Assembly: GCA_001600455.1 (NCBI GenBank)
Contig: BCKC01000006.1
Location: 1 to 64,000 of the forward strand
DNA from: Endocalyx cinctus
Taxonomy: Eukaryota > Ascomycota > Sordariomycetes > Amphisphaeriales > Apiosporaceae
Length of the DNA stretch: 64,000 nt
Direction: 5' to 3'
The number at the start of each line of letters is the position of its first letter. Position 1 is the first letter of the stretch. Position numbers and translations under genes: made by a program. The notes under the pieces were generated by a model. The model made no database searches and was not told the origin of the DNA. It saw nothing but the letters and a program-made list of their open reading frames with translations. Positions 21,731-38,703 of this stretch are shown here, piece after piece.

Positions 21731-22107
21731 GGTTACTAGCGATATTATTTAAGTACGTAGGTACTAGAAGTTAGATCCGTTTTGCGTAATTCGAGCGCGT
21801 AATAACCTGAATGAGGGGAGGTGGGAAATTTCAAGTATAACAGCGGAATTGGATTTTATAGTGCTGCCTTGGTTGTTGGCGGAGGGTGCTTAGAAGCTGA
21901 TCTTTGGAAACATACCGACACCTAATGTGTTACGGTGATTAATTGGTAGGTACCTGTGTACCCTATCGGATACAATAAAATATGCCGAACAAAAATGCTC
22001 CGCATGCGTACAAACGCCCCAAATACCTGCGAAGTACTTTGGAACTAGGATTGAATCAGGGCTAATTCAGGCCTACTTAGGGGCCCTCTCATAGCACATT
22101 CTGACAG

Positions 22108-22170
22108 TTGGAGAAACCTCCCTCCTTAAGCATTAATCCATGTCATTCAATACTCCAAAAGAAACCTATC
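22108..22170 (+). repeat. Direct repeat D copy 1 (pair with 24730-24790)
   Basis: CCTCCTTAAGCATTAATC begins both copies. Copy 1 continues CATGTCATTCAATACT where copy 2 has TATATTATTTAATATT, a set of C-to-T and G-to-A changes. Confidence 0.7.
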
Positions 22171-22190
22171 TCACACTATCAGATTATCAG

Positions 22191-22386
22191 AGCTTATAGA
22201 GGGTAATTGGGAGTTTGGTAATCATATTATATAAATATGTCATTAGATTAGGGCTTAAGGAACTATTTATTTCTATAAATCGAACAGGAGCTCAGCACCT
22301 TAGTTATAATACTTCCTGAGCTAGTACTACGTAATTCAGGGGTTGGTCAATAACTCAAACCGGGTTCACGAGCTTGATTCCACCCT
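22191..22386 (+). repeat. Dispersed element, segment A copy 2
   Basis: Same-orientation copy of 14353-14552. Here it continues into segment B, which suggests A and B belong to one element. Confidence 0.85.
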
Positions 22387-22445
22387 CATTACCACTTATC
22401 ACCATACTTACTTACTATACTTACTTATCGTACATCACCATCATA

Positions 22446-22595
22446 CATTGTGGCGGTGCTGCAGGGATGACTAACACAGAGTCTTTATTATTATTAGTTA
22501 ACCCCGCAGAGCCGTATGTAGTTAGTTCTTAGTTTTATCATCATCACAATAGACCGAGTGGAGTAGAATCTTCTGTTTTGTTCCCTTTCAATCCC
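22446..22595 (+). repeat. Dispersed element, segment B copy 1
   Basis: Matches the reverse complement of 36685-36833: TTGTGGCGGTGCT, GAGTCTT, TTATTATTAGTTAA, CCCCGCA, TATGTAGTTAGTT and TCTTCTGT occur in the same order. Confidence 0.78.
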
Positions 22596-23198
22596 GCGGG
22601 ACCAAATAAATAATATGATGGTATATGATAATATGTGATGTTGTATAATGTATGGGGAATAGCTAGGTTTTGAATTTTCAAGGTTTTTTTTATAGTTGGG
22701 TTTCGTATAGTACGGCTTCCTCCGGCAACTTTTATGACCCCCTAGTTAACGATAATCGGGCAGCTAGCCGGGTGCTCGTATACTCTAGAGAATTTAGTTT
22801 AGCCCAGCTCCGTTTTATTATTAATGTATTAATTTACGTTAAAAAAAATTATTATTTAGTATTAAGTAAGCGTAATAAACTACGACGGCTGCTTTATAGG
22901 CAGTGAGATGGTAATAGATTGAGATGGTAATGGGAAGGGATGATGTAATGATAACGTAATAACGGCAATAAAATAAAGATATATAGTCAGATAATTCTTT
23001 TCGCCTTTGGCGAATTATTAGATAGAAGAATTAACAATCTCTAACAATGTAAGGGCGTGGCCCTTGACACAGCTGTATATAATAGTGAATAAGCCCTAAA
23101 GTGCCAAGTGGATTGACACTCGTAATCTTTTTGGATTATTGGCAGAGTGGTATTAGGGCACCATCCTTACAAACAACAAATTTTAACCATTACCATGT

Positions 23199-23345
23199 TA
23201 TAAACCCGCTAATATGTCGGATAATACTGGTCTACCTGACTTTGTCTGATTGGTCGGTTCGTGGTGGGTTTTGATTTAAAGGTAATAATAGATTAAGAAG
23301 TTTTGTTAAGTAAGGTTCACGATGTTTGTAAAAGAGGTTTTAAGG
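23199..23345 (+). repeat. Repeat E copy 1 (least mutated)
   Basis: Begins TTATAAACCCGCTAATATGTCGG. Two further copies follow at 23877-23940 (partial) and 23941-24085. Copy 1 retains more C and G at the variable positions. Confidence 0.8.
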
Positions 23346-23494
23346 TACTCTATACTATGGTGAAAGATAGTATTTAAATTGGAAACTAAAGAGCTAAGGT
23401 AAAGATTGACTAAATATAGTAGGAAATCTATCATTAAATATTTGTAAATTTCTGGCAGGTTAGGATATTAAGACTGGTGATGATCTATGTGATC

Positions 23495-23532
23495 TATTGA
23501 TCTAATAGATCACTCAGATCATTAGATCAATA
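23495..23532. repeat. Short perfect inverted repeat
   Basis: TATTGATCTAAT at 23495-23506 pairs perfectly with ATTAGATCAATA at 23521-23532 around a 14-nt loop, within a GATC-rich patch. Confidence 0.7.
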
Positions 23533-23876
23533 ATCACGTGACTAGGAGCTTGGTTGATAAGGCTTTTTAGTTATATTATTTGGTGATTAATCGAGTCAAT
23601 ATTTTAGGCCTGTTAAATGGGCCAATTTCTGATTTTGTAACACACCAGTTGTGACCATATTAGGCAGATTATTATTCCATAATATTACCCCGGAAAATTA
23701 TATTTTATCCAGCCGAAAATACGGCAATATAAAAATTATAAAAACCCCAACGAGCGAAATATAATAAATATTTTATTAAGTTTTATTTTTACTTATTATA
23801 TTAATTATTTATTTATTATATAACTTATTTAACAGCTTTAAACTTTTTAAATTTTACCTTTAAGTTCTTATAATTA

Positions 23877-24085
23877 TTATAAACTCGCTAATATGTCGGA
23901 TAATATTAGTTTAATTAACTTTATTTAATTAGTTAATTTTATTATAAACTCGCTAATACGTCGGACAATATTAGTCTAGCTAACTTTGTTTAATTAGTCA
24001 GTTCGTAGTAAGTCTTAATTTAAAGGTAATAATAAATTAAAAAATCTTATTAAATAAGGTTTACGATATTTATATAAGGTTATCA
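23877..24085 (+). repeat. Repeat E copies 2 (partial) and 3, RIP-mutated
   Basis: Both start TTATAAACTCGCTAATA. Relative to 23199-23345 almost all differences are transitions toward A/T (for example GTGGTGGGTTTTG becomes GTAGTAAGTCTTA). Confidence 0.8.
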
Positions 24086-24885: not shown

Positions 24886-26794
24886 TTACTCAATTGGCAC
24901 GTAGAATCTCATAAGGTTCTGAGGGTCCCATTTGGCCTTAAGGTCCTTGAGTTTGTTTAGGCGCCAGTCCTCCCAACCGTAGACGGCACGGATGTCTTCA
25001 GTACCGTGGGCATAGTTGACGTAGGCGCGGAGGTGTTGGGGGTCGTCACTGGCCTCGAGCAGGATCTCGCGCAGGGTTCTGCCGAAGTCTTGCGCGACGG
25101 GATCGATGGTCGAGTTGGGCTGGTACTGCACGTATGAGGTGACGAGGATCTCGTCGCTGCGGTGCGGAAACGCCGTACTCTTCTCGTCAACGGCTTGTAC
25201 CCCTTGGGTCGAGTACCCTTCGAGCAGGAAGAAGGAACCTGCGATCTCGGGTGTCGCTTGGAAGCTTGCGTCGATGTGGTCGTATACTTTTCGCAGAGCA
25301 GGGATGTCATACGTCTTTAGCCCGATCGGATACCGCAGCGACGTTAGTCCGTACGCGCACCCGGGTCCATCCGTGTCCTGGAAGGTGAGAACGGCTAGTT
25401 CATGTGTGGACGCGGTGCCGGCTTGGACTGATAATGCTTCAATGTTGTGGAGTGGCTTGGCGTACTCCCGCGCTTCGGCTTCCGGTCCATCGTACATGAT
25501 GCCGTACCAGAGGATGGGCTGGACGGGATTAATATATGAGTTCAAGGCATTATTGTTTGATAGAGATGGAGACAAGATACAGCGTGTATGTATGGATGGA
25601 TGGAGGGATAATGGATGGATAATAGTGTTGTGCGAGGAAAAGGGATAGGGGAAAGGAGACTTACGTGGTCAGGGTTAATCTCTGCCACTCTAATAATATA
25701 ACCCCAGTGAATAGCTTGTGGTGGCTGGCTTTTCATCATTTCGTTGGTGAGCTCGTACAAAGCCTCGAGTTTATCACCCGAGAAGATGAAAATCTCGTAA
25801 GACCACTTCGACACTCCGGGGTTGAAATCGTGCACGCGATAGGTCCACTCGGCAACATAGCCAAAATTGTGGCCAGCACCCCGGATGGCCCAGAAAAGGT
25901 CTGAGTTCTCGTCTTCCGATACGGTCACGGCCTCGCCGCTCGGAAGGACGAAGCGCGCCGAGATGATCTGATCGGCAGCAAGGCCGTATTGACCTTGTAG
26001 CCATCCGTGACCACCGCCGAGAGTGGGGGCAGTAACACCTACGCACTCGCAGATACCGGTGACTAACTAGTGGTCAGAGTCTTTTTCATTGATTTATCCC
26101 AGGGTATGCTCCTGATCCGTTGAATATAGAGATAATTACTTACCCGTACGTTTCCCCGACGCGGCCAGTCCATCTACGACTTGCTTCACAGTCGCACCAC
26201 CTCCAACTTTGGCCGTCTTACCGTCTTCGGAAAGGGACACATAGTTCATCTTACGAAAATCAATCTGGATAGCATTTTGAGCTAAAGCCATCGCTTCGGT
26301 CGCACCGTGACCTCCAGCTCTTCCGAAGAAGGGCACATTGCGCTCGTTTGCGTAGCGAATCTGATGGTGCGGGTATTTACTTAGATTAGCAAGAATAATA
26401 ATAACAAATAAAAAAAGAAAAAGTTAGCAAAAAGCTTATAGATTGAAACCTGTCATTTTATAGAAGATTCAGGTCGCTCAAGCCTTTTTTTACTCACCAC
26501 TTCCTGAATATCACTCTCAGTCACAACTTCTACGATGGCGGCAACGGTGGGTGCGTGCCATTCTCTCCATCGGCTGACGAGACCAGCAAAAGAGGCGTCG
26601 GATGGAAGGAAAAGTGTGGCCTGGGGAGAAAGGCGAGGACCGAGATCGGCAGACACGTCGAGACTCATTGTTCTACCTGCTAGAAGAAAAGATGCTAAAA
26701 GTGATGCTATGCCGAACTTGGTGATGCTCGATAACGAGAAGGTTGGTATTCTGTTCCAACCACTGTTGATCACCGCGTTATTGCTGGTCTCCAT
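24886..26794 (-). CDS. BBE-like FAD-linked oxidoreductase
   Basis: Four exons are predicted: 26794-26498, 26360-26144, 26062-25665 and 25518-24886 (514 aa). All join in frame. The N-terminus has a hydrophobic segment (ITKFGIASLLASFLLAG), likely a signal anchor. The FAD-binding PP-loop reads FFGRAGGHGATEAM with the His that normally carries the covalent flavin, followed by IDFRKMNYVSL and AKVGGGATVKQVVDGL. The third exon has TAPTLGGGHGWLQGQYGLAADQI, with no Cys at the usual bicovalent position. The C-terminal BBE region ends WDPQNLMRFYVPIE. The family oxidises alcohols, amines or carbon atoms of metabolites. Adjacent to UstYa-like genes and the repeat precursor, it could tailor that peptide; this link is inference from position. 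An alternative upstream start in frame is TTG only. Confidence 0.9.
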
Positions 26795-27713
26795 TTTTAT
26801 ACTAGAAGAAAACAAAAGCGTTTAAGAGGAAAATCACGACGGATTTATGTGGTGACACGCGAAGTAACCTTTCCACGTGGTTTAGTGGTGTTGGGGTGGG
26901 ATCTAAATATGACTCGTCACCCAACGCTTAGAAATACGGACTTCGCCCATCTTTATGGAAGGATTGGACGTGTTGGTAAAATGATTCGATTTGTACTTTC
27001 TTGGCACGAGTAAGAAAATCAGATTAATAAGTAAATAAATACTGTGCATTTTGCTCGTTTATACCGAGCCACCCCTCACGTCCGCATTGCTGATGGCGCC
27101 CATCATAAGGTAGTGCCTTGTTCCTTATCGGTCCGGGCTTGGAAAAAAAAATGACAAGGGATAAAGAGAGGGGTCGACATACACAAACAGAAGGTCCGAA
27201 GGACGGAATTATCTCTACGACTCAACCTTGATATCGTACGTGTATCTTATTACGTCCAATCCTTCGATGTTACAATATAACAAGCATGCAATATATACGC
27301 AGCTTGGTCACATAGTAGGAGCGCCGACAGAAAGCCGCTAAACCATGGTTAATCAGTATATTCACAATGTATGCACACAGTGTGACAGCTATATAACACC
27401 TGCTCGGATGGCTTATGTATACTGTAGCGGGAATGTGGGTGGGGTCGAAGCTCTTGTGGCACTTTGACAAGAGTCACAAGAGTTGTGAAATCCACAAGGC
27501 TTAAAATTGATTTAGGAGTTTTTTTTTTTTTTTTTTTTTTGCAACTCTTATTTTTCTCACAACTATTGTAATCCCCCTATAACGTACGGTACAGTAGTGA
27601 GTCGATTTGGACTAGCCCCCCGGCGTATCAAATCTCACCCGCCGACGGTTAATATTATGATACCGTTACAAATCAAGCCACGCAGGCCTACAATTTTACA
27701 TCTTACTACCTAG
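26795..27713. other. Intergenic between the BBE-like gene and the first UstYa-like gene
   Basis: Contains the promoter of the BBE-like gene and a run of about 22 T at 27519-27540. No other gene seen. Confidence 0.5.
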
Positions 27714-28571
27714 TTATGTGCTACTTACATGAGCCTTTCCATGGCTAAGCCCTGCCGCCAGGAATCCGGTAGCATTGAAAACCCTCCAGTCTTGAACATA
27801 CTGCTTCAACGCGTCGAAATCTCGACACTGTCGAAGGAAACCGCTACCTAAGAAGCCGTCGGCGTTATCGCCTCCGTACGGCTCAATAGTGCTGTCCACC
27901 TCGCAAGTGATGGTCTGTTTCAGGTAATCAAAACAATGCGCCGCATGAATCGTCCTGTTTTTACCTAGGTCGAACTCCTCGAGCTCATCGTTTGACTGGA
28001 TTGAGTAATATGAACGTCGTAGTACGTAGAGGCAGTGCAGTTGGTGGAGAGCTGTCGGGATAGAGATTTCGGGAGCCAAGTCACCGTCTCGGAAATATCC
28101 CAACCCATCTGAATTGATCGATTACTTGTCAGCTAAGTTGCAGAGACAGGAAATTGCAAGTAAAGTCCGTCGCCGGTAAGCTATTAGTCGTGTCAACTTA
28201 CTTGGTACCAATGCGTCCCAGATTGGCTCCGATTCGTCTCCAGCTCCCTCGCCCTGAGGTGGTTCTTTTGAGAAAGGTGATGCGTATTCAAACGCGAGCT
28301 GCGTGTACGGTAGCGGGATTCGCGGTGCCGTAGACGCGGCGGAGGAGGCATCGTTGTGGCTATTACTTATATGATTCCGCATCCATGTTGCGCCAAAGAC
28401 AAAGCCGCCTATGATTGATAAGAGAAACAGAAGGACGGCGATGGCCAGGCGGTAAAGACTGTCTTTGGAAATTGTCTGGCGTTTCTGTGGTATTTTAGAG
28501 GAGCAGCTTTGGTCCTCTTCATCCTTTGCAAGTCGTTGATAGTCAACCTTGCTACTGATTTGAGCCGCCAT
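27714..28571 (-). CDS. UstYa-like (DUF3328) oxidase, copy 1
   Basis: Exons 28571-28202 and 28108-27714 are joined in frame (A plus AT gives Asn; CTGAC branch, TTCAG acceptor), giving 254 aa. A cytosolic tail of about 38 aa is followed by one membrane segment (LAIAVLLFLLSIIGGFVFGA) and a lumenal domain. The two family signature motifs are present: HQLHCLYVLRRSYY and, about 45 residues on, HCFDYLKQTITCEVD. YFRDGDLAPEISIPTALHQLHC is also typical. UstYa proteins drive oxidative cyclisation in fungal RiPP and some other peptide pathways. A GTAAGT overlaps the last codons; if used as a donor with a TAG acceptor the stop moves to about 27673. Transcribed away from the precursor at 29994. Confidence 0.92.
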
Positions 28572-28645
28572 AACTGATTTCCTTCAAAATTTACGTACCA
28601 TCAGTAGTACTCTCACGAAACATGAAGGAAGACAGTCAAGGGATG

Positions 28646-28676
<31 letters not shown>

Positions 28677-29993
28677 AACGCAAATGCTTTGCCCTACGAT
28701 TATTCAGCCGGGTTGACGCCGAGGACCAGCACGTAATATAGTGTCTGATGGTTTACATCAAGTTTGACGAATTATGTCAGTCTAGCGAGAAGGCGGAGAG
28801 AATGGAAAGTGATTAATCTTGTACCCTTCTCAGTGGAACTCTGGGAATTGATGAACTTGGTACACTGCATGATCTTATGCGGGGCATGAAGTACCACGGT
28901 TGTTTACCAGACGGAGTTATTTTCGTCCAATACCACACTACCTACTTCATCAACCGGGGATTAGCTTCGTTATCAGTACAATAGTTATTGAGTTGTTGGT
29001 AGGATAAAATAATGTTCCGATTGTGCGATTCTATTTCTTTGCCCCTTACAGTACTGTGATAGTATAGTGTACAATTATGGGTGAGGCATCCGTTCAGAGT
29101 TTACAAGCGAGAATTACACAGTAAGCTACGTGTATGGGTTAAGACCATAAGCCGTAGCTTTATACGAATCCTTCGAGATATATTTCGCTTCGCTATACTC
29201 CGTACTTGGTGTGATGGGTAAAAAAGGTATGTGGGCCGGTACTGAACGAGGCCAGGGTCGTTCTGCTGTACAATTTATTAGTAAATCTACCCCCTGTTGG
29301 CATATTTTTATGAAAACGCGTGGGGGAAAACCGATGGCTAGCGCACCCCACGAGTACCTGACAGGGTTACCTTTCTTTCGCTCGCAACCAATACATGAGT
29401 GCGGAATGTGCGGCAGGACATTTCGATGCTACCAACAGGATGTTAACTTATCATTGAAATTTGACGTAACCTAATGATCATTTTGGTAAGAAATACAGCT
29501 AAAGGATCGGGTATCATCAAAATATGCGCCAATATGCGCCTGGATGGAGCCATGTTTAACTAGTTAACGCTCACCGAGCTGGGGTTTCCCAATAGTGAAT
29601 CCTATGATGTTACTGAAGCATTATCGGCCACGTATTGCGTAGAAAAGGATAAGACTGCAGGCAGAGGATGGCCGTCGCCAACACTTTACCCCTTTTGGTC
29701 TGAAATAGAATGATGGGGTTCTTATCTCGACCTATCCGGCAATGCAAGGTTCTTCTCCTAATCGGGACGAAATAACCGATACAGAAGATGGAATGTAAAT
29801 GTCGAGGTGAAAAGAGCGGAGGAGTTGAGATGGAATATGAAGATTAATCTGGGGCTGATAACCCCCTTTTTTCCTTCGAGTTTCCATCTAGACAATTTGT
29901 CGCTGTCGTGGTTTGCCAAACTCTTACCCTCCTAAGCCTACATACTTTTTTCACCAAACAATAGCACAGCCAAAACCAAAACAGTCAGTCAAC
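28572..29993. other. Promoter region between UstYa-like copy 1 and the precursor gene
   Basis: A divergent intergenic region of 1.4 kb with a run of about 25 A at 28646-28671. An 87-codon plus-strand frame at 29211-29474 has no recognisable features. Pyrimidine-rich CTTTTTTCACC and CAAAACAGTCAGTCAACATG precede the precursor ATG, a normal fungal start context. Confidence 0.5.
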
Positions 29994-30319
29994 ATGAAGG
30001 TCACCATCATCTCCAGCGTCATTTTGGGTCTATCTACCTTTGCTGTCGCTATCCCCGTCGGTAAGAGCGATAATTTTATATCCTAAATTAGGTTCACAAG
30101 CTAAATCGTTTCCTTTTCATTTTAGGCAAAGCCAGTGAAATCGATGTCGCCGATGCTTTCAAGCGTGACGCTTCCGACATCGATGTAGCTGATGCTTTCA
30201 AGCGCGACTCCTCCGAGATTGATGTTGCGGATGCTTTCAAGCGTGAATCCTCTGAAATCGATGTAGCAGATGCTTTCAAGCGTGATGCTTCTGATATCGA
30301 CGTTGCCGACGCTTTTTAA
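29994..30319 (+). CDS. Kex2-type repeat precursor, candidate RiPP (dikaritin-like) precursor peptide
   Basis: Exon 1 is 29994-30060 and exon 2 is 30126-30319 (86 aa). The intron is GTAAGA..TTTTAG, and joining G to GC gives Gly in frame. Residues 1-19 are a secretory leader (MKVTIISSVILGLSTFAVA). From about residue 27 the protein is five copies of IDVADAF. Copies 1-4 are each followed by Lys-Arg, and copy 5 ends the protein. The repeat unit is 13 aa: two acidic/Ser linker variants (DASD, DSSE, ESSE) alternate before the invariant core. All base differences between the core copies are synonymous. Cutting after KR and trimming would release peptides such as DSSEIDVADAF. Two UstYa-like genes flank it and a BBE-like oxidase lies nearby, the usual company of ustiloxin/phomopsin/asperipin/victorin-type precursors. 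Alternatives are a pheromone precursor (no Trp/Cys pheromone core is seen) or a simple Kex2-processed repeat protein. Confidence 0.88.
30150..30316 (+). repeat. 39-bp coding tandem repeat of the precursor
   Basis: Units of 39 bp code for IDVADAFKR plus a four-residue linker. Third positions vary (GTC, GTA, GTT; GCC, GCT, GCG, GCA) while the amino acids of the core do not. Confidence 0.9.
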
Positions 30320-30912
30320 ATCCAATATCTGTTGTTGATAAATTGCGGTTATTAAGACGTCGAGGTTTATGAGCGATGAACCACGGTCGGTTAGAGCAAA
30401 GCCTCTTTTTTATGCTACGAAACAGTTGTATCTAGATTTATTTTACGAGGATTATTTTGATATTGGGCCGAAAACATTCACTCAGATTTGATACATCAGC
30501 CTGTATGCGTATCATGTCATATAGTTGAAAGACACTCTTTGAATATGCATTGCTTTCCACGTTATGCTAATTAAGTTTTTCTTTCTTAATTGTTATATGC
30601 TTTGAAGTATTTGTACCGTATCATGTGGAATTTTGCGTGAGCTCTGGTACGTGTACTCGAGACGAACACCCCTTACGATTAAGCAGTTGAAGAACTTCAT
30701 TTATAACTAAAGATAAGGAATGAGCAGTACATGTTTGTGAGACGAAACAAAACAGAAAATATCATAACAGTTTCGGGAAGCTATCGTCATTGAAACTAAT
30801 CCCCAAATAATTATAAAAAAAAAGTCAATCATCGGGTACTTTATACTTTTGAACTACTCGTCAAGTGGTAACAACTCGGCTAATATGTAAGCTGGTGTTT
30901 TATACCCAAATC
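30320..30912. other. 3' region between the precursor and UstYa-like copy 2
   Basis: Convergent arrangement; AT-rich, likely holding both transcript ends. No gene seen. Confidence 0.5.
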
Positions 30913-31773
30913 TCAATCTCCCGAGCTAACGTATCCTATAGACTCGGCCGGTAGACCTTCCATGACCTCGTCAGTCGGGACATACTCGTCCGTGACGACG
31001 TAGTTGCTGCCGGGCGGGCAGTGCTTAAACCTGTCCAACTTCTTGGGGCCGTCCCATTCCGCGTTCTCGGGACGCTTGTAGCAGGCCGTGTGTTCCTTGG
31101 CAAACGCCTCGAGGGCGTCCCAGCTGCGGCACATGCGGTGCTGACCGAGCCCCGCGACGACCTCGGGCCGGCGGTCGGTGGCTCGGGGCGTATCGTCGGC
31201 ATCGCAGAGGATCTGCCGGCGCAGCGTGTCGAGGCAGTGGCTGATGTGGTGCCAGGATCGCGTTTGCTCGACGCCACGCTGGTACTCTCGCAGAGATATG
31301 TACACGTTCTTCAGGCAGTGCATGTTGTGCACGCCGTGGAGGATATACAGACCTTTCGAATGGTCCCAGGGAAACCTTTGTGCGATTCGGAGGTCGTGCT
31401 CACGGGCCCAGTCGTCCGAAAGTGCGACCACGGCCACGTCGTCGTTGATGCTCATCCATGCCTCATCCTGGACCGTCTCGTTGTTGGCCTCGGCGTACTC
31501 AGTTATATAGACGTACGGCTCTTCGTGAATACGACTGATATGGGCGTATTTTGAAGGTGGCTCTTCGTATCCTTTGGCGGGACGGAAAGATAGGACGAGC
31601 TGGGTAACGTTAACCGCTACCGATGCCAATAAAAGACCTATGAGCAACTTGAAGAGTGAGCCTCTGGAAGAAGCCCGTGATTGAATGTATTCTTTCTCGT
31701 CGTAACTCTCATCGTCTCTAAATTCAGAGAGTAAAGCCTCACGGCGTTCTACGCTGTCAACCGAAGGAGACAT
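30913..31773 (-). CDS. UstYa-like (DUF3328) oxidase, copy 2
   Basis: Single exon, 286 aa. After a 40-residue polar tail comes one membrane segment (LFKLLIGLLLASVAVNVTQLVL) and a lumenal domain. The signature is complete: HGVHNMHCLKNVYISLREY, then HHISHCLDTLRRQILCDADDT. A C-terminal extension follows with four more Cys (CRSW, ACYKRP, HCPPGSN) and the tail VPTDEVMEG. It is only distantly similar to copy 1 (different motif spacing, no intron), so the pair is not a recent duplication. It is convergent with the repeat-precursor gene, about 600 bp away. In known pathways two or more UstY proteins act on one precursor. Confidence 0.93.
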   Translation of the reverse strand: MSPSVDSVERREALLSEFRDDESYDEKEYIQSRASSRGSLFKLLIGLLLASVAVNVTQLVLSFRPAKGYEEPPSKYAHISRIHEEPYVYITEYAEANNETVQDEAWMSINDDVAVVALSDDWAREHDLRIAQRFPWDHSKGLYILHGVHNMHCLKNVYISLREYQRGVEQTRSWHHISHCLDTLRRQILCDADDTPRATDRRPEVVAGLGQHRMCRSWDALEAFAKEHTACYKRPENAEWDGPKKLDRFKHCPPGSNYVVTDEYVPTDEVMEGLPAESIGYVSSGD

Positions 31774-32869: not shown

Positions 32870-34360
32870 ATGTTGTTTGAAAAGAGGACTGTTTTGGCCC
32901 TCGTGAGCGATCGCGTAGGTCTCATTGTAATGACGGCCATTTTCACCGTGCTTATTATTCTTTCCGTCATTCTTCGATTCATGGCTAGAGATGTGACGAA
33001 AGCTGGGCTTAAAATCGATGACTGGTTCGCATTGGCAGCCTTGGTAAGTTTATTCCACTTTATTTCAACGTTTTATTTCTTCGGGGAAAAAAAGAATACA
33101 ATAAAGTCAAATAAAATTTGACCATAAGTAGATATCCGTTCTCGGTCTAAACGGGGTCTTCCTTGCCGGTACCATCGATGGTGCGATTACCGGTCATTCC
33201 GTCGTCGTGAACGGTATGCCGGTGACAAATGACCTAGAGATACTTACGCAAAAATACAAATACGCATATCAAACAACGGAGAAAATCGTTTTTGGACTCA
33301 TCAAGATATCTCTCCTTTTACTCTGGAGGCGTCTCTTCGGTAGGGCCAAGGGTTTCGCCACCTTCTGCTGGGTCATGATCGGCATCGTGGTGGCCTGGAC
33401 CGTCGCGTTTTTCTTCGAGACCGTTTTCCAGTGCGGAACGAACTGGCCCCTCAACTGGGCGCCGATTTATATCTTTCTCACCCAGTGCACCTCGAGTCTG
33501 AATGTGCTCACGGTCTTTGGCGTCACCGATGTGGTCACGGACCTGATCATCATCGCAATGCCCATTCCACTCATCTGGACTCTGCAGATGCCGCAAAAGA
33601 AGAAATTGGCCGTAACCGGCATTTTCGCTCTCGGTTTCTTGTGAGTTACCGGACGTCCCTTCATAATACATACCGCATATTTTTCATCATGCACTGACTT
33701 GGAAATCTGAACAGCACTATCGGCGCCGGAGTGGCCCGCTTGTATTATTACCTCGCGACCTCTTACAACCAGGTAGAAAATCCGGATTTCATCGGAGACG
33801 TCACCCTCACGCTCTTGTGGTCCACGATAGAGGCCAATGTAGCAATGGTGGTGTGCAGTCTCCCCGTCTTGGGACCCATTATCGGCAGGTTTCGGGACAA
33901 CGTCGTCACGGTGTTGCGCCGCTCCCCGTTTGGCAAGTGGATCGACATCACGAATGACCGCAGCAGCAACACCAAAGGGAGCTATCAGTTGAGCGACATA
34001 TCTCGAGCCGAAAACGGTCACTCCAAGATAAATCCCCTTAACGATAGAACTGGCACTTCTCCGCAACATAAGGCCCAGTGGCAGGGAAGCCGCGGAACGG
34101 TTGCGTCCGCAGGCTTTTCCGGTACCATAGAACCCCCGGAACACAGGTCAGTAATTGAGAATCATTTAATAATTCTTCCCTATTTAGACGATTATATCAC
34201 ACCCTCTTCTGTCGAAGGGGAAAAAAAACATCTTGATCCTTATTCTACGTCTACTAGACACCAGCTAAACATATCAAGAGCTAACTATCGATCTTTGATT
34301 AGACCAGGTATCCTTGCGAGTACTGAAATTTCCACGACATTTGAGCCGCATGCGATGTAG
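32870..34360 (+). CDS. Seven-TM fungal rhodopsin-domain (PTH11/SAT4-like) membrane protein
   Basis: Exons 32870-33043, 33132-33640 and 33715-34360 join in frame (442 aa). Family signs are DDWFALAAL after TM1-2, the YAYQTTEKIVFGLIKISLLLLWRRLF segment (TM4, with the usual K-x-S-x-L-x-x-Y/W-R-R-x-F), QCGTNWPLNW with its Cys, the FGVTDVVTDLIIIAMPIPLIWTLQMP TM6 motif, and TLLWSTIEANVAMVVCSLPVLGP in the last TM. A Ser-rich cytosolic tail of about 130 aa follows. Related proteins are putative receptors; some sit in metabolite clusters without known role. A GTCAGT near 34147 could start a further intron, so the tail is less certain. Confidence 0.88.
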
Positions 34361-34512
34361 TGTAGGGGCACTCTATTTATTTTATAAAAACGTTACTTGA
34401 TAAAATATTAATATACTTGTCACAGAACTGGGAGCTTACCATTCGAAAAATAACTGATGTAATTCTTGTAATAATAAGGTTAAGGAAGAAAGGAAGGGAA
34501 GTAAATATCCAT

Positions 34513-36475
34513 TCATGTACGCACAACACCCTTGTAAACCTTCCGAGCAATCTTTATAACCGTGCCGGGATAATCTACCCCATCGCTTTCCAATCTTCCC
34601 ATCTGTAAATCCGCCTCGTGTGGTAAAATCCTCCGCGTCCCTTTCCAGATCTTATAACCGGCGATATTAGCTAGGTATATGACGATTCCTATGTACGAGG
34701 TTATGAAGGTTGATACCGTGAACTTTAGTATGAATGCGTTGTAACCTTGAGATTTGATTTATTTAGTTTAGCGTGAAACTAAAGATATAAGAAATAATAG
34801 AGAAAGGTAACTCAGGTAGGAAAACTGACCATTAAAGAAAACAATAATGCACGTAGCAGCCAACGCGAAATATGCTCCGTAAGGCTGCAGGCGACCTTTG
34901 TAAGGCATGCGTGCCCTTTCTAGACCTTGAATCCGCATGGCCCTCGTAAACCCGATGTAGGCCACAAGAATACTAATCCAATTCAAGGCGCCGGAGATTG
35001 TTACGAGGCTAACCAGATATCCAAACACGGTCGATGCGTTCTTGCTCACGTTCAGATATCCTAGAGCCGTGAAGACGGCGGTAGCCAGGGCGGCCCAGAC
35101 GGGCACGCCTTTGGAGTTCGTCTTTTTGAAAAAAGCCGGCGCCTGTCCGTTGCGGGCCATCCCGTAGAGCGCGCGTGACCCGATGTAGATGTCGGAATTG
35201 GCGGCGCTGAAGACGAAGATCAGCAGCGAGCCGTTGACCACGTGCGGAAAGACGGGGATCTTGGCGAGCTGGACGGCGATGACGAAAGGGCTCGCAGCCG
35301 CGCTCGTGCTTTCCTTGGTGGCCCCGACGAGCTGGTCGTTGGTGTACGGGACCGACATACCCAATACCAAGACGCCGACAACGTAGAAGAAGGCGATACG
35401 CCAGAGCGTTCGTCGGACCGCCTTACGGACCGTCTTTCGCGGATTAGGCGCCTCTCCGAAGGCGACCCCGACCACCTCGGTGCCCGTGTAGGCGAAGCAG
35501 GCTTGCACGAGGCAGGCAAAGAAACCGAGAAAGCGGCCGAGAGAACCTTCTTCCAAGTAGGTGCCGAAAGCGCCCGGGTCTTGCCAGTACCGAAACCCGA
35601 TTCGCTCCCCGGATGGTTGGCCGCCGAGGGAAATGATAAAACAGGTCAAGACGAGGGTAATGATGACGAGAGGCTTCACAGATGATAACCAAAACTCCAC
35701 TTCTCCAAAATAAGATACGTGGAGGACCTGTAGTTTGTTTTGGTAATTCCGATAATTAGCTTTAGTAATTAACCCTATATGTCTATGCGAAGGTGACGAA
35801 TGGGGGGAGCACGTACATTAATTATGATAATGGCTACGGTAAATGTCGCAACAAATATTGCTACGTTCAGTTCAGGCCGCCAGTATTGGATAATTATACC
35901 CGCTGCTGTTAAATTATTTGGTAGCACGATAGCATACTTCAGAAAGTAGTTCCAACCAGTAGCGAATCTGTTAAATCCGTTAATAATTGTATTAGTTCTT
36001 GCTTCAGGTAGCATCGTGGAGATTCCTTACCCCAGAGCTGGGTCGACAAATCGAGTAGCAAAACCTGAGAAACCTTTGTCGTCCGGGAACATGGTGGCCA
36101 TTTTAGCCATTGCCGTCATTATAAAGTAATTACAGCTCCGATGAGGATGTATGCGATGAGAAGACTAGCGGGTCCGCCTCGGACAAGACCGGTCCCAGAA
36201 CCTACGTAATAACATGTTAGAATTTATTTTTGATTTGCATCCAGATTAATAGTGATAAATATAAGACCTGCAAGCAGGGAGAAAATAGTATTACCAATAA
36301 TCAAACCCGTGCCAATAGCTCCCGCTACAGCGATCATGGACACATGACGTTCTTTGAACTCTCTCCGTAAATGATCATTAGGCTCAACGTTCCCCTCTCC
36401 AGTCGATAGAGTGTTGTGGAGATCTGTATCATCTGGGATTGAGTCATTTGTGACATGTTTGGTATTCTTATCCAT
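34513..36475 (-). pseudogene. Amino-acid permease (APC/YAT family), frameshifted
   Basis: Recognisable exons are 36475-36295, 36201-36031, 35967-35817, 35727-34830 and 34745-34513. Family landmarks are HVSMIAVAGAIGTGLIIGSGTGL with GGPASLLIAY, MATMFPDDKGFSGFATRFVDPALG, FATGWNYFLKYAIVLPNNLTAAG, FWLSSVKPLVIITLVL, and SRALYGMARNGQAPAFF. In exon 2 the frame runs into TAA TGA at about 36117-36122, and the conserved MTAMAKMATMF resumes in another frame: one base appears to be missing. The following splice phase (GGG next to ATTC) also does not fit cleanly. The rest is well preserved, so this is either a recent pseudogene or a sequencing error. About 12 TM segments would be expected. Confidence 0.75.
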
Positions 36476-38703
36476 GTTTAAGAAAGATGTTGTCAGATTA
36501 GATACCGGAGATATGTTGTTCCGAAACAACATACTGTAAATACCTGGTGAAAATTTGTATGGAAATAACACCTAATTGAACACATGCTTTTTCACATATA
36601 CAATTAAACAGATGTAGCATAAGATCTATGCAGTTGAGCGACTAAATAATTCGACAAATGCCTTAGTTTGCCTAAGTTTACAAAGGGTGAGAGAGAGAAC
36701 AAGACAGAAGACTCTGCTAACTCGCTATATCTTGAATTTTCATGAAACTAGAAACTAACTACATATAACTTTGCGGGGTTTAACTAATAATAAAAGACTC
36801 TAGGTTAGTTATCCTTTTTAGCACCGCCACAAGGGTCTTCTACACGCCTCTACGAACCCATCTTTAAAAACCCCTTTAGTTTTCTTATCTTATCTTTTTT
36901 GTGTAACATAGTAAAAATTGTAAACTTAGGACGTTCTAGGAGCTGTAAGCTCACCCCCCGTATTAAAAAGTGATAGTCAAAATAGACTACTACATAAGTC
37001 AGACCTATATAATCGGTGCCGGAGTACTAGATTTATAAAAATTTAAATAATTTCACCTACGAGATATTTGCCTCTGCGCAGATCAGAAGTTTATTCTTAA
37101 AAGGAGCTAACTTTCATTTAATATTCGATATCAAAATTACGACCGTATTTTTGATGTGGTAAAGTCTTTAGTTAGGTACGATATCATGGAATAATGACAA
37201 TGTTTTACTAAAACGCTTAAGATCTCTGTCCCACATATTTTATCTACTTACCCGTCTCTCCGCACGTTACTGCTTGCTCACGAATCTACCCCATCACTCT
37301 GCCCCGTCGGGCTCATCTCCGTATGTAAAAGCGAGAGCAACGGTTGTTTCAAGCTATTTCTCACCGTCCAGATCCACCATGTCGACTAGCTCGCCAGAAG
37401 TAGCACTCACATATCTGGAGCCCGCATAGCATGAGCTATGGCAAGGGTCGTAAAAGCCGCCGCCGGTGGAGCTACAAACTGCCTAGCACAATTCCTAGTG
37501 TTGAAGTGGAAATAATAAGGTGGGTTAGGACCATATAAACCGTTATAGCCAAGCAGATCATACCGGACGTTCGTTTTGGTTTGTGACTTGATGAACTTTG
37601 TTTTCGTCTTTATCCTATAATGAGACCGGCGTGTTAGCTCTATTTATCCAGATATACAAGTCTCGCCAAAGAGTTATGGCGTCTCTTGGAATTGCAAGTT
37701 GTTAGTTTAATCGCTCCGCTAACACTCAAGTTACCAAGGGCCTCAGTTATCATAAAGTATACGGAGCATGTCTACGGCTACCCGAGGGGTAGCCCCAGAG
37801 GGATACATCTATATACAAGAGATTGATCTATGCTATAAGTATGCCGTTATCTGCACTTAATTATTTTCCCAACATAGAGTAGGCATTCAAGTCACTTAGA
37901 TGCATGATTCGGAAAATCAGGTGAGTGATTGCCACCCTTCTAGATAGAAGTAATTACGTGAGAATAGTTATTATATAGTTATTTATTATTAACTGTATTA
38001 AATTTGGGTTGGGCGTATGGGGGCGTTACTGTGATAATTTATTTGTGTTAAGCTTCTGTAAACTAATATATCATGAACACGAGCTTACTTCGTATTATAA
38101 GAAAATTATTTTTAAAAATAATTATCCCTAAGAAGCTTTTATTAATAGATTGTAAATGTTCGCCCATATATAGTTCATTCCGGTATCCCTAAAGTGACAC
38201 GTCGTTCAACAATAACTAATAGTTATTTTGCTGACCAACAAAATTAATTAGTTACAATCTTCCGCTCATAAGACTCTCCGCCTTCCAATTAGTAGCCTAG
38301 AGACCCCCTCCCTGCTTTAAAACCAACAAAACTTTATTTAGAAAATGAAATGTTGGATTCAGGGTTAAGGGTGAAATCAAGTGTTTCTTTGGTAGCAATG
38401 GAGAAAACTTCATAAGTCGTCAAGAAATCATACGTCTAGATATTGGGGGCTCATGCGCATAATGGGATAGAATAAGCGTGAATCGGTGAATCAGATAATC
38501 ACTACGATACGTGTTTTTTTTTTGCTTTATTACAACTATAAATTATACCAATAGCAATGTCTCGTGGGTACTCGATAATAATAGATTCGAGGTACCCTTT
38601 TTAACCACTTTTTGAATAAAGGCAAACATCAAATCGAGCACTTCTCAGATATACTTAAAGAAACCTATTTCTACTCTTCTATAGCTTTAATTACAGTTGG
38701 TTT
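36476..38703. other. Intergenic, 2.2 kb, contains repeat segments B and C
   Basis: No gene is supported. It is the shared upstream region of the permease (minus) and the MFS pump (plus), with transposon debris at 36685-36977. Confidence 0.55.
36685..36977 (-). repeat. Dispersed element, segments C then B (inverted)
   Basis: On the minus strand this reads segment C (36977-36833, as at 16888-17041) followed directly by segment B (36833-36685, as at 22446-22595). It therefore links the two segments as parts of one element. Confidence 0.82.

Follow-up and report, generated by a model that had tools for sequence, protein, structure and literature searches.

A gene encoding five copies of the heptapeptide IDVADAF sits between two UstYa genes, UstYa-A and UstYa-B, in the window, as we call the whole 64,000-nucleotide stretch of Endocalyx cinctus DNA analyzed here. 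These three genes can be assigned with high confidence to one pathway which, judged from sequence, is likely of dikaritin (ust-RiPS) type, in a minimal form and with a core that lacks Tyr, and together they very probably make one short modified peptide. The initial annotation had read the locus as a dikaritin-type RiPP locus with a precursor and two UstYa genes, and that reading is supported by finding these genes linked in further fungi as well. Gene structures, family assignments, repeat conservation and linkage of the trio were established by computation.

A spliced precursor gene with five IDVADAF cores

The precursor gene (29994-30319, plus strand) has no single open frame, its unspliced reading being interrupted; removal of a GT...AG intron (30061-30125) joins exon 1 (29994-30060) to exon 2 (30126-30319) and yields 86 residues. 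The 86-aa protein with five KR-parted IDVADAF copies described in the initial annotation is thereby confirmed, but only after this splicing. Its N-terminus is hydrophobic (by hydropathy only, with a 19-residue mean of 2.06 from residue 5) and is followed by the five cores with four KR pairs between them. In the sequence, cores 1 to 4 (30140..30160, 30179..30199, 30218..30238 and 30257..30277, all plus strand) are each followed by KR, and the stop codon comes immediately after the last Phe of core 5 (30296..30316, plus strand). A leader and repeated cores with Kex2 sites at their ends, as expected of a dikaritin precursor, are thus present.

Among the five core copies, 33 changes fall at third codon positions and none at positions 1 or 2 (70 codon pairs); because the copies differ at third positions only, the core is, as judged from its codons, under selection. 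When all six frames were scanned across the entire window for KR- or RR-parted repeats, the precursor was the sole match. A looser repeat scan gave no match in 100 mononucleotide-shuffled stretches of ~10 kb, a control made up of shuffled sequence, with real non-UstYa genomic stretches confined to those of the window. Elsewhere in the same genome, at least four further repeat precursors lie near UstYa genes, and the locus therefore belongs to an already known kind.

Two UstYa proteins flank the precursor

UstYa-A (254 aa; 27714-28571, minus strand) is encoded by exons 28571-28202 and 28108-27714, separated by an intron at 28201-28109, and UstYa-B (286 aa; 30913-31773, minus strand) by a single exon. 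UstYa-A and the precursor are divergently transcribed with a common upstream region of 1.4 kb, and UstYa-B and the precursor stand tail to tail. Both proteins match PF11807 (79.7 bits for UstYa-A and 75.8 bits for UstYa-B, cut-off 25), and in each there is a pair of HxxHC motifs along with a single strongly hydrophobic stretch. The initial annotation had reported complete UstYa motifs in both genes; this held for the family match and for HxxHC but not for HCxDxLRQ, which is exact in neither (HCFDYLKQ in UstYa-A and HCLDTLRR in UstYa-B). The motif His and Cys residues either did not vary or were at least 90% conserved across alignments of 55 B sequences, including UstYa-B of the window, and 43 relatives of UstYa-A, with that of the window left out, each alignment covering part of all matches. 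Predicted structures of UstYa-B and of UstYa-A relatives contain one long N-terminal helix and carry the motifs on two helices.

The closest database matches were 73% identical to UstYa-B and 65% identical to UstYa-A. Neither has a close paralogue among the UstYa matches in the genome, the others being at most 43% (UstYa-A) and 44% (UstYa-B) identical over partial stretches. For UstYa-B, no solved relative was found by sequence (best E 0.89) or by fold at E ≤ 0.001, and NCBIfam assigned it to no family.

DUF3328 (UstYa) genes beside a precursor define the class in the revised view of dikaritins cited in PMC12048977, and such genes, with two HxxHC motifs each, flank the precursor here. Tyrosinase, one of the original five dikaritin genes, had no PF00264 match in the window (1-64000), and the S41 peptidase search of the window was likewise negative, in contrast to the ustiloxin and phomopsin clusters. 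The same source reports dikaritin clusters that lack one or more of the five original genes.

The FAD oxidase and the rest of the window

A gene for a FAD-dependent BBE-like oxidase of 514 aa lies at 24886-26794 (minus strand; exons 26794-26498, 26360-26144, 26062-25665 and 25518-24886, with the last acceptor, 25518, tentative). The four exons read without stops and match PF01565 (88.9 bits, cut-off 26.4) and PF08031 (22.0 bits, cut-off 20.6), and by this evidence the gene is a genuine BBE-like gene, as the initial annotation had claimed in describing an intact FAD oxidase at 24886; NCBIfam gave nothing but sub-cut-off relatives. Its proposed membership in the pathway, on the other hand, found no support in family size or promoter words. 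That it is a needed fourth member, oxidizing for example an alcohol or amine made by UstYa-A or UstYa-B, seems to us possible but somewhat doubtful: it is an intact gene with a BBE domain, stands on the same strand as UstYa-A at a distance of 0.9 kb, and has 6-hydroxy-D-nicotine oxidase and EncM as its best solved relatives, but its family is very large in this genome (90 matched stretches, its own exons counted) and the 700-base upstream regions of the four genes have no 7- or 8-base word common to all. Four eight-base words were common to three of the four regions, compared with a simulated mean of 1.6 and maximum of 7, so that no promoter word across these 700-base regions clearly exceeded simulated sequence.

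Farther along, an MFS gene (17973; 5 kb past the FAD gene) and a sedolisin-like gene (9511; 14 kb past it) are a candidate transporter and a candidate peptidase whose links to the pathway are putative. Rfam returned nothing at gathering scores in the window.

Conservation of the core

A search of public proteins with the precursor, one of the checks suggested in the initial annotation, returned 12 relatives (E ≤ 1, best 1e-17), mostly from Xylariales, and every one contains at least one exact IDVADAF. The search matches on exact 5-residue words and the query is largely made of the core motif; relatives with changed cores would therefore be missed and core conservation overestimated. Cutting the 12 matches and the window's precursor at dibasic sites gave 49 units, 36 of which are exactly IDVADAF and 46 of which end in Phe, two of the three exceptions being at the ends of apparently truncated models. 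With the window's own units set aside, and also one exact unit from each match (which could by itself have brought the match in), 19 of the remaining 32 units were exact. Internal units end in KR (32 of 36), KKR (1), RR (1) or KH (2). Column entropy, calculated over 46 units chosen by pattern (the pattern-free recount being the 49 units), ranged from 0 to 0.66 bits in the core and from 2.0 to 3.1 bits at the four spacer positions. The mature core is probably IDVADAF or the 8-mer [D/E]IDVADAF. The [M+H]+ values computed for these peptides are 750.3668 for IDVADAF (748.3512 after loss of 2H, 766.3617 with one added O) and 879.4094 for EIDVADAF (877.3938 after loss of 2H).

Neither IDVADAF nor DVADAF was found as text in any paper in open-licence PubMed Central, supplements aside, and DVA, ADAF and DAF are absent from the main text of a survey of KEPs, the Kex2-processed repeat proteins (PMC7329392, supplement aside). 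The core is less unusual than the initial annotation made it: victorin sets a precedent for one that lacks Tyr and has Phe at its end, and in that survey Tyr occurs in only 65.6% of the Kex2 repeats next to DUF3328 genes.

Linkage of the trio in other fungi

Locus tags for UstYa-A, precursor and UstYa-B, in that order, are consecutive in Anthostomella pinea (Uu.00g010960/970/980) and Hypomontagnella monticulosa (F5Y04DRAFT_285635/636/637) and nearly so in Daldinia sp. FL1419 (333863/861/860), the order of JGI-style tags being one that need not match map order. The UstYa-A tag adjoins the precursor tag in Monosporascus sp. mg162, as does the precursor tag the UstYa-B tag in Parahypoxylon ruwenzoriense. 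With contig identity deduced from equal length and species name, UstYa-A and UstYa-B occur on one contig in 28 of the 30 named species common to both searches, Aspergillus and Penicillium among them. This count used all 92 A and 115 B matches; the count that also took in the precursor, with 68 of the 92 A, all 115 B and all 12 precursor matches, gave the same result. Two more contigs that carry no species name also bear both genes, one of them listed at 5,325 bases. Because consecutive tags and shared contigs recur in other fungi, UstYa-A, the precursor and UstYa-B are, on this comparative evidence, a transmitted unit.

A precursor match was present on only 4 of the 30 contigs bearing both UstYa genes; on the rest, small genes may have been missed by annotation or the cores may be of another kind. 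Aspergillus and Penicillium have the UstYa-A/UstYa-B pair, and none of the 12 precursor matches comes from them. By locus tag, a gene falls between the two UstYa genes in Xylariales sp. No.14919 (067120), Penicillium robsamsonii (N7447_005193) and Aspergillus filifer (183018). Conversely, five of the 12 precursor matches lack a UstYa-A or UstYa-B match on a contig of equal length: two Apiospora strains with degenerate cores (and, in one strain, KH at two sites), Nemania diffusa, with an apparently truncated precursor model, Xylaria telfairii, with its precursor on a 41-kb contig, and one 850-base contig. The A and B trees agree (r = 0.81 over 31 tips, reached by 0 of 2000 permutations), an agreement due in part to a common species history; the placement of Nemania and of Xylaria curta differs between the two.

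Proposed pathway and alternatives

From these observations we infer a course of secretion, cutting, copper use, reaction and product. The precursor would enter the secretory pathway, where Kex2 would cleave after each KR and a carboxypeptidase would then remove this pair, so that ...IDVADAF ends in a free Phe, just as the stop codon leaves the last copy. UstYa-A and UstYa-B, as membrane-anchored, lumen-facing oxidases with an HxxHC-HxxHC dicopper motif, would then oxidize the core, and the 4-residue spacer would be trimmed away. The likeliest oxidation would be a side-chain crosslink from the Phe7 ring to the beta-carbon of Val3 or Ile1, proposed by comparison with the reported Phe-Leu ring of victorin, with beta-hydroxylation or desaturation next in likelihood. 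We somewhat favor the formation of a ring from the core, and such a ring would probably use Phe. The product is called cyclic conditionally because UstYa proteins have also been reported to hydroxylate, halogenate and desaturate.

Modification by UstYa-A and UstYa-B without a ring, through hydroxylation of Asp, Val or Ile or through desaturation, is an alternative to the crosslink that we think rather unlikely. DUF3328 proteins have been linked to hydroxylation and halogenation besides macrocyclization (PMC12435403), UstYa homologues desaturate residues in the phomopsin pathway (PMC10512285), and the usual aryl ether would need a Tyr, which the core lacks. Against this, the Phe at the C-terminus is strongly conserved (46 of 49 units) and fits a structural crosslink role such as that reported for victorin (PMC9233826), and two UstYa genes per precursor are the arrangement of ustiloxin (PMC7329392).

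An unmodified, linear secreted peptide, Kex2-processed and alpha-pheromone-like, with the neighboring UstYa genes serving something else, is improbable. It would suit the lack of Tyr and a peptide alike across genera, as expected of a signal, and 78% of the Kex2 repeat precursors surveyed (6120 of 7878, PMC7329392) have no DUF3328 neighbor; against it, the linkage of A, precursor and B is seen again in further genera, A and B are carried together, and in that survey annotated mating-factor or pheromone precursors have, with three exceptions, no DUF3328 neighbors. A silent or decaying subtelomeric locus, as telomere repeats at the start of the window and an adjoining AT-rich block (33.6% GC at 22,001-24,000) might suggest, is scarcely credible given four open genes with plausible introns, precursor repeats that vary synonymously at third positions only, and a trio linked in other fungi.

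Returning to the crosslink, a joint proposal that we offer as speculative, and on the whole unlikely, is that the UstYa-A/UstYa-B pair, perhaps a heterodimer, closes a Tyr-free core by joining an unactivated Phe ring to Val3 or Ile1 without tyrosinase; that the product stays near-constant in IDVADAF lineages as a signal with a fixed receptor, not a changing toxin; and that the pair in Aspergillus and Penicillium acts instead on other cores, encoded by the gene between A and B.

Discussion

Victorin, which is chlorinated and host-selective, is the nearest chemical precedent and, like this locus, has a Kex2-type multicore precursor. Its ring joins the side chain of the C-terminal Phe to an internal Leu, according to a review (PMC9233826), and this bond is of the kind that IDVADAF could form. 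The dikaritins ustiloxin, phomopsin and asperipin-2a resemble the locus in having a Kex2-parted multicore precursor beside UstYa (DUF3328) genes; the locus differs in its Tyr-free core and in a heptapeptide that is much alike across genera among the matches found. Epichloecyclins (gigA), which are fungal cyclic peptides, likewise derive from a multicore precursor that is secreted, but they are cyclic nonapeptides described as having a Tyr-Ile link (PMC9233826). KEPs have a signal-like N-terminus and near-identical KR-ended repeats, as in the locus precursor, and 22% of the 7878 surveyed lie near DUF3328 genes (PMC7329392). Among DUF3328 proteins, CctR is a dimeric hydroxylase with a dicopper centre (PMC12435403) that, like the A and B families, has a membrane helix, two HxxHC motifs and a further conserved Cys, and the modelled helix layout of UstYa-B and of UstYa-A relatives is that described for it; its substrate is a non-ribosomal peptide, unlike that of the locus, and copper at UstYa-A and UstYa-B is putative.

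A December 2022 paper (PMC10512285) counted no more than five reported dikaritins, whereas predicted precursor types numbered at least 838, with 22% of the genes near UstYa homologues. A core found again in other genera, together with the linkage of three genes, makes the Endocalyx locus well suited to asking what UstYa proteins can do to a Tyr-free core. It also poses the questions of why two UstYa proteins are kept together and whether some such peptides are conserved signals. Because the enzyme pair occurs in Aspergillus and Penicillium without a precursor match, whether cores have been exchanged can be tested in nature's own comparison.

Precursor repeat and its relatives

The window begins the contig C6 (BCKC01000006.1) of a genome of 44.8 Mb in 15 contigs and covers its first 64 kb, with telomere repeats at its start (1-300; CCCTAA occurs 19 times within the first 1000 bases). 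The locus is subtelomeric, lying 25-32 kb from the contig end, and is adjoined by an AT-rich block (33.6% GC at 22,001-24,000). Four genes were modelled: the precursor (29994..30319, + strand), UstYa-A (27714..28571, - strand), UstYa-B (30913..31773, - strand), and an FAD oxidase (24886..26794, - strand; exon 4 acceptor tentative). A 65-base intron is required for the precursor reading frame, and the spliced 86-aa product bears out the five KR-parted IDVADAF cores of the initial annotation; a hydrophobic start is followed by the cores at an exact 39-base period, with KR after cores 1-4 and a stop codon after core 5. Across the five core copies (70 codon-pair comparisons) there were 33 third-position differences and none at first or second positions, a confinement that neither recent duplication alone nor chance explains; the repeat is genuine and constrained. 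To the right of UstYa-B, a fungal rhodopsin-domain (PF20684) gene and an amino acid permease occupy 32870-36571, and nothing ties either to the pathway.

Searching 5.8 billion proteins by shared 5-residue words, by which relatives with altered cores would be missed, returned 12 precursor relatives, from Apiospora arundinis (two), Nemania, Anthostomella, Monosporascus, Xylaria (two), Xylariaceae sp., Hypomontagnella, Parahypoxylon, Daldinia, and an 850-base ENA contig (one protein). Taxonomy look-up placed Anthostomella, Nemania, Monosporascus, Hypomontagnella, and Parahypoxylon in Xylariales, to which Xylaria and Daldinia also belong, and Apiospora in Amphisphaeriales. When these relatives and the window precursor were cut at dibasic sites, 36 of the 49 resulting units were exactly IDVADAF and 46 ended in Phe; after removal of the window and one exact unit per relative, 19 of 32 were exact. 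Of the 46 pattern-picked units, 37 have D or E immediately before Ile, and the remaining spacer positions are free to vary; the likely core is therefore IDVADAF, or an 8-mer that includes the acidic residue, rather than the entire 13-residue repeat.

UstYa-A, precursor, and UstYa-B as a unit

Searches with UstYa-A and UstYa-B gave 92 and 115 matches, respectively, in two disjoint sets. By locus tag, UstYa-A, precursor, and UstYa-B are consecutive in A. pinea and H. monticulosa and fall within four tag numbers in Daldinia sp. FL1419, while the precursor adjoins UstYa-A in Monosporascus sp. mg162 and UstYa-B in Parahypoxylon. Using equal contig size as a proxy for the same contig (JGI model numbers do not strictly follow map order), we placed 7 of the 12 precursor relatives with UstYa-A or UstYa-B, four of them with both; the other five had neither match on a contig of their own size. 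The two UstYa genes were on equal-sized contigs in 28 of the 30 named species present in both lists, the exceptions being Xylaria bambusicola (two matches from different assemblies by tag) and Alectoria fallacina (distant matches). A precursor match was found on only 4 of the 30 contigs bearing both UstYa genes (two of these contigs lie outside the named species), which, like the five unplaced relatives, speaks against a unit. They lie one tag apart in Xylariales sp. No.14919, Penicillium robsamsonii, Aspergillus filifer, and Rostrohypoxylon terebratum, where the gene between them is absent from the precursor matches and, we infer, would encode a different core or an unrecognised precursor. 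Linkage in other fungi thus argues that UstYa-A, precursor, and UstYa-B are one unit.

Both Apiospora arundinis strains (P0001 and P0006) have degenerate cores, with KH replacing KR at two sites in P0006, and Apiospora is absent from the UstYa-A and UstYa-B matches. Decay following loss of the enzymes would fit and is possible, but absence from match lists is weak evidence.

The FAD oxidase is intact and BBE-like, as initially annotated, with 6-hydroxy-D-nicotine oxidase and EncM as its closest solved proteins. Its proposed pathway role is somewhat doubtful: it matches 90 stretches of the genome, compared with 9 for UstYa-A and 6 for UstYa-B (own exons included; stretches are exons, not genes), and the upstream regions of the four modelled genes showed nothing clearly in common.

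In both trees the window clusters with Stachybotrys elegans and Xylariaceae sp. FL0594 (support 0.99 and 1.00), and the UstYa-A and UstYa-B trees agree (r = 0.81, 31 tips, reached by 0 of 2000 permutations); elsewhere they are weakly supported and discordant (Nemania, Xylaria curta). Since Stachybotrys belongs to Hypocreales by taxonomy look-up, the pair may have moved jointly between orders.

Predicted chemistry and novelty

UstYa-A and UstYa-B both exceed the Pfam cut-off for PF11807 and each carries two HxxHC motifs. The first His and final Cys of each motif are invariant in the UstYa-B family (55 sequences), with the middle His at least 90% conserved; in the UstYa-A family (43 sequences) motif 2 is invariant and motif 1 at least 90% conserved. 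Moderate-confidence models of UstYa-B (mean pLDDT 76) and of a Stachybotrys relative of UstYa-A (72), used because the window's own gene is spliced, each predict one long N-terminal helix and two motif-bearing helices, matching the architecture reported for CctR.

IDVADAF lacks Tyr, Trp, His, Cys, Lys, Ser, and Thr, which leaves the Phe ring and aliphatic or acidic side chains as reactive sites. In passages of a review, ustiloxin and phomopsin rings close between Tyr and Ile, and the victorin ring joins the C-terminal Phe to an internal Leu (PMC9233826). Our preferred guess is that UstYa-A/UstYa-B would bond Phe7 to Val3 or Ile1. The main rival is hydroxylation or desaturation of the core instead; in CctR, the HxxHC motif is reported to hold a pair of copper ions, and O2 is used to hydroxylate a C-H bond that is not activated (PMC12435403).

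The locus has the repeat precursor and UstYa genes typical of dikaritins but no tyrosinase match in the window, and its product is a predicted one. The initial annotation expected this product to be new. A search of the main text of open-licence PubMed Central articles found no mention of IDVADAF or DVADAF; the peptide class itself is already known. Two surveys are relevant, one from 2019 (PMC6339444) and one from 2020 that, in its available passages, reports 7878 Kex2-processed repeat proteins of 838 types in 1461 strains (PMC7329392) and whose supplement may list the IDVADAF type. According to passages of a Hypoxylaceae survey, every Hypomontagnella species and two Hypoxylon carry a putative RiPP cluster of the ustiloxin-like type (PMC8403587), perhaps the present locus and perhaps another, and those of the A. 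pinea genome paper report 23 predicted fungal RiPP clusters (PMC10763133); neither set of passages names an IDVADAF peptide.

Other UstYa loci in the genome

PF11807 matches 48 stretches of this genome (G000 in coordinates). At a G000:C2 locus (5575586-5587809), tyrosinase matches come after three UstYa matches within ~12 kb, as in a classical dikaritin cluster; its stretches L019 and L020 gave no precursor in the repeat scan. At G000:C11:432309-439134, UstYa matches lie 6 kb from an S41 peptidase match, the sole one detected in this genome, and such a neighbourhood is reminiscent of ustiloxin clusters.

The repeat scan, restricted to UstYa loci and the window with shuffled sequence as the only comparison, found a Kex2-type repeat in 4 of 20 stretches of ~10 kb, covering 19 of ~30 other UstYa loci, and in 0 of 100 shuffled stretches. 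L029 (G000:C10:1587000-1596900) encodes, at ~4298 on its + strand, a Kex2-type precursor with NFPAPHNSY-containing repeats ended by KR, a repeat for which open-licence PubMed Central text gave no mention; two UstYa matches flank it, forming a second trio of similar layout. The other three UstYa loci with a repeat precursor or candidate are L031 (G000:C8:1612600-1622500), L034 (G000:C7:2982600-2992500), and L036 (G000:C4:478600-488500); one of these loci has Trp in its repeat and the other two have Tyr. Tyr thus occurs in three of the four repeats and Trp in one, and the window's repeat alone has neither. Repeat precursors therefore pair with UstYa genes in this genome, and the window locus is one of several such pairings.
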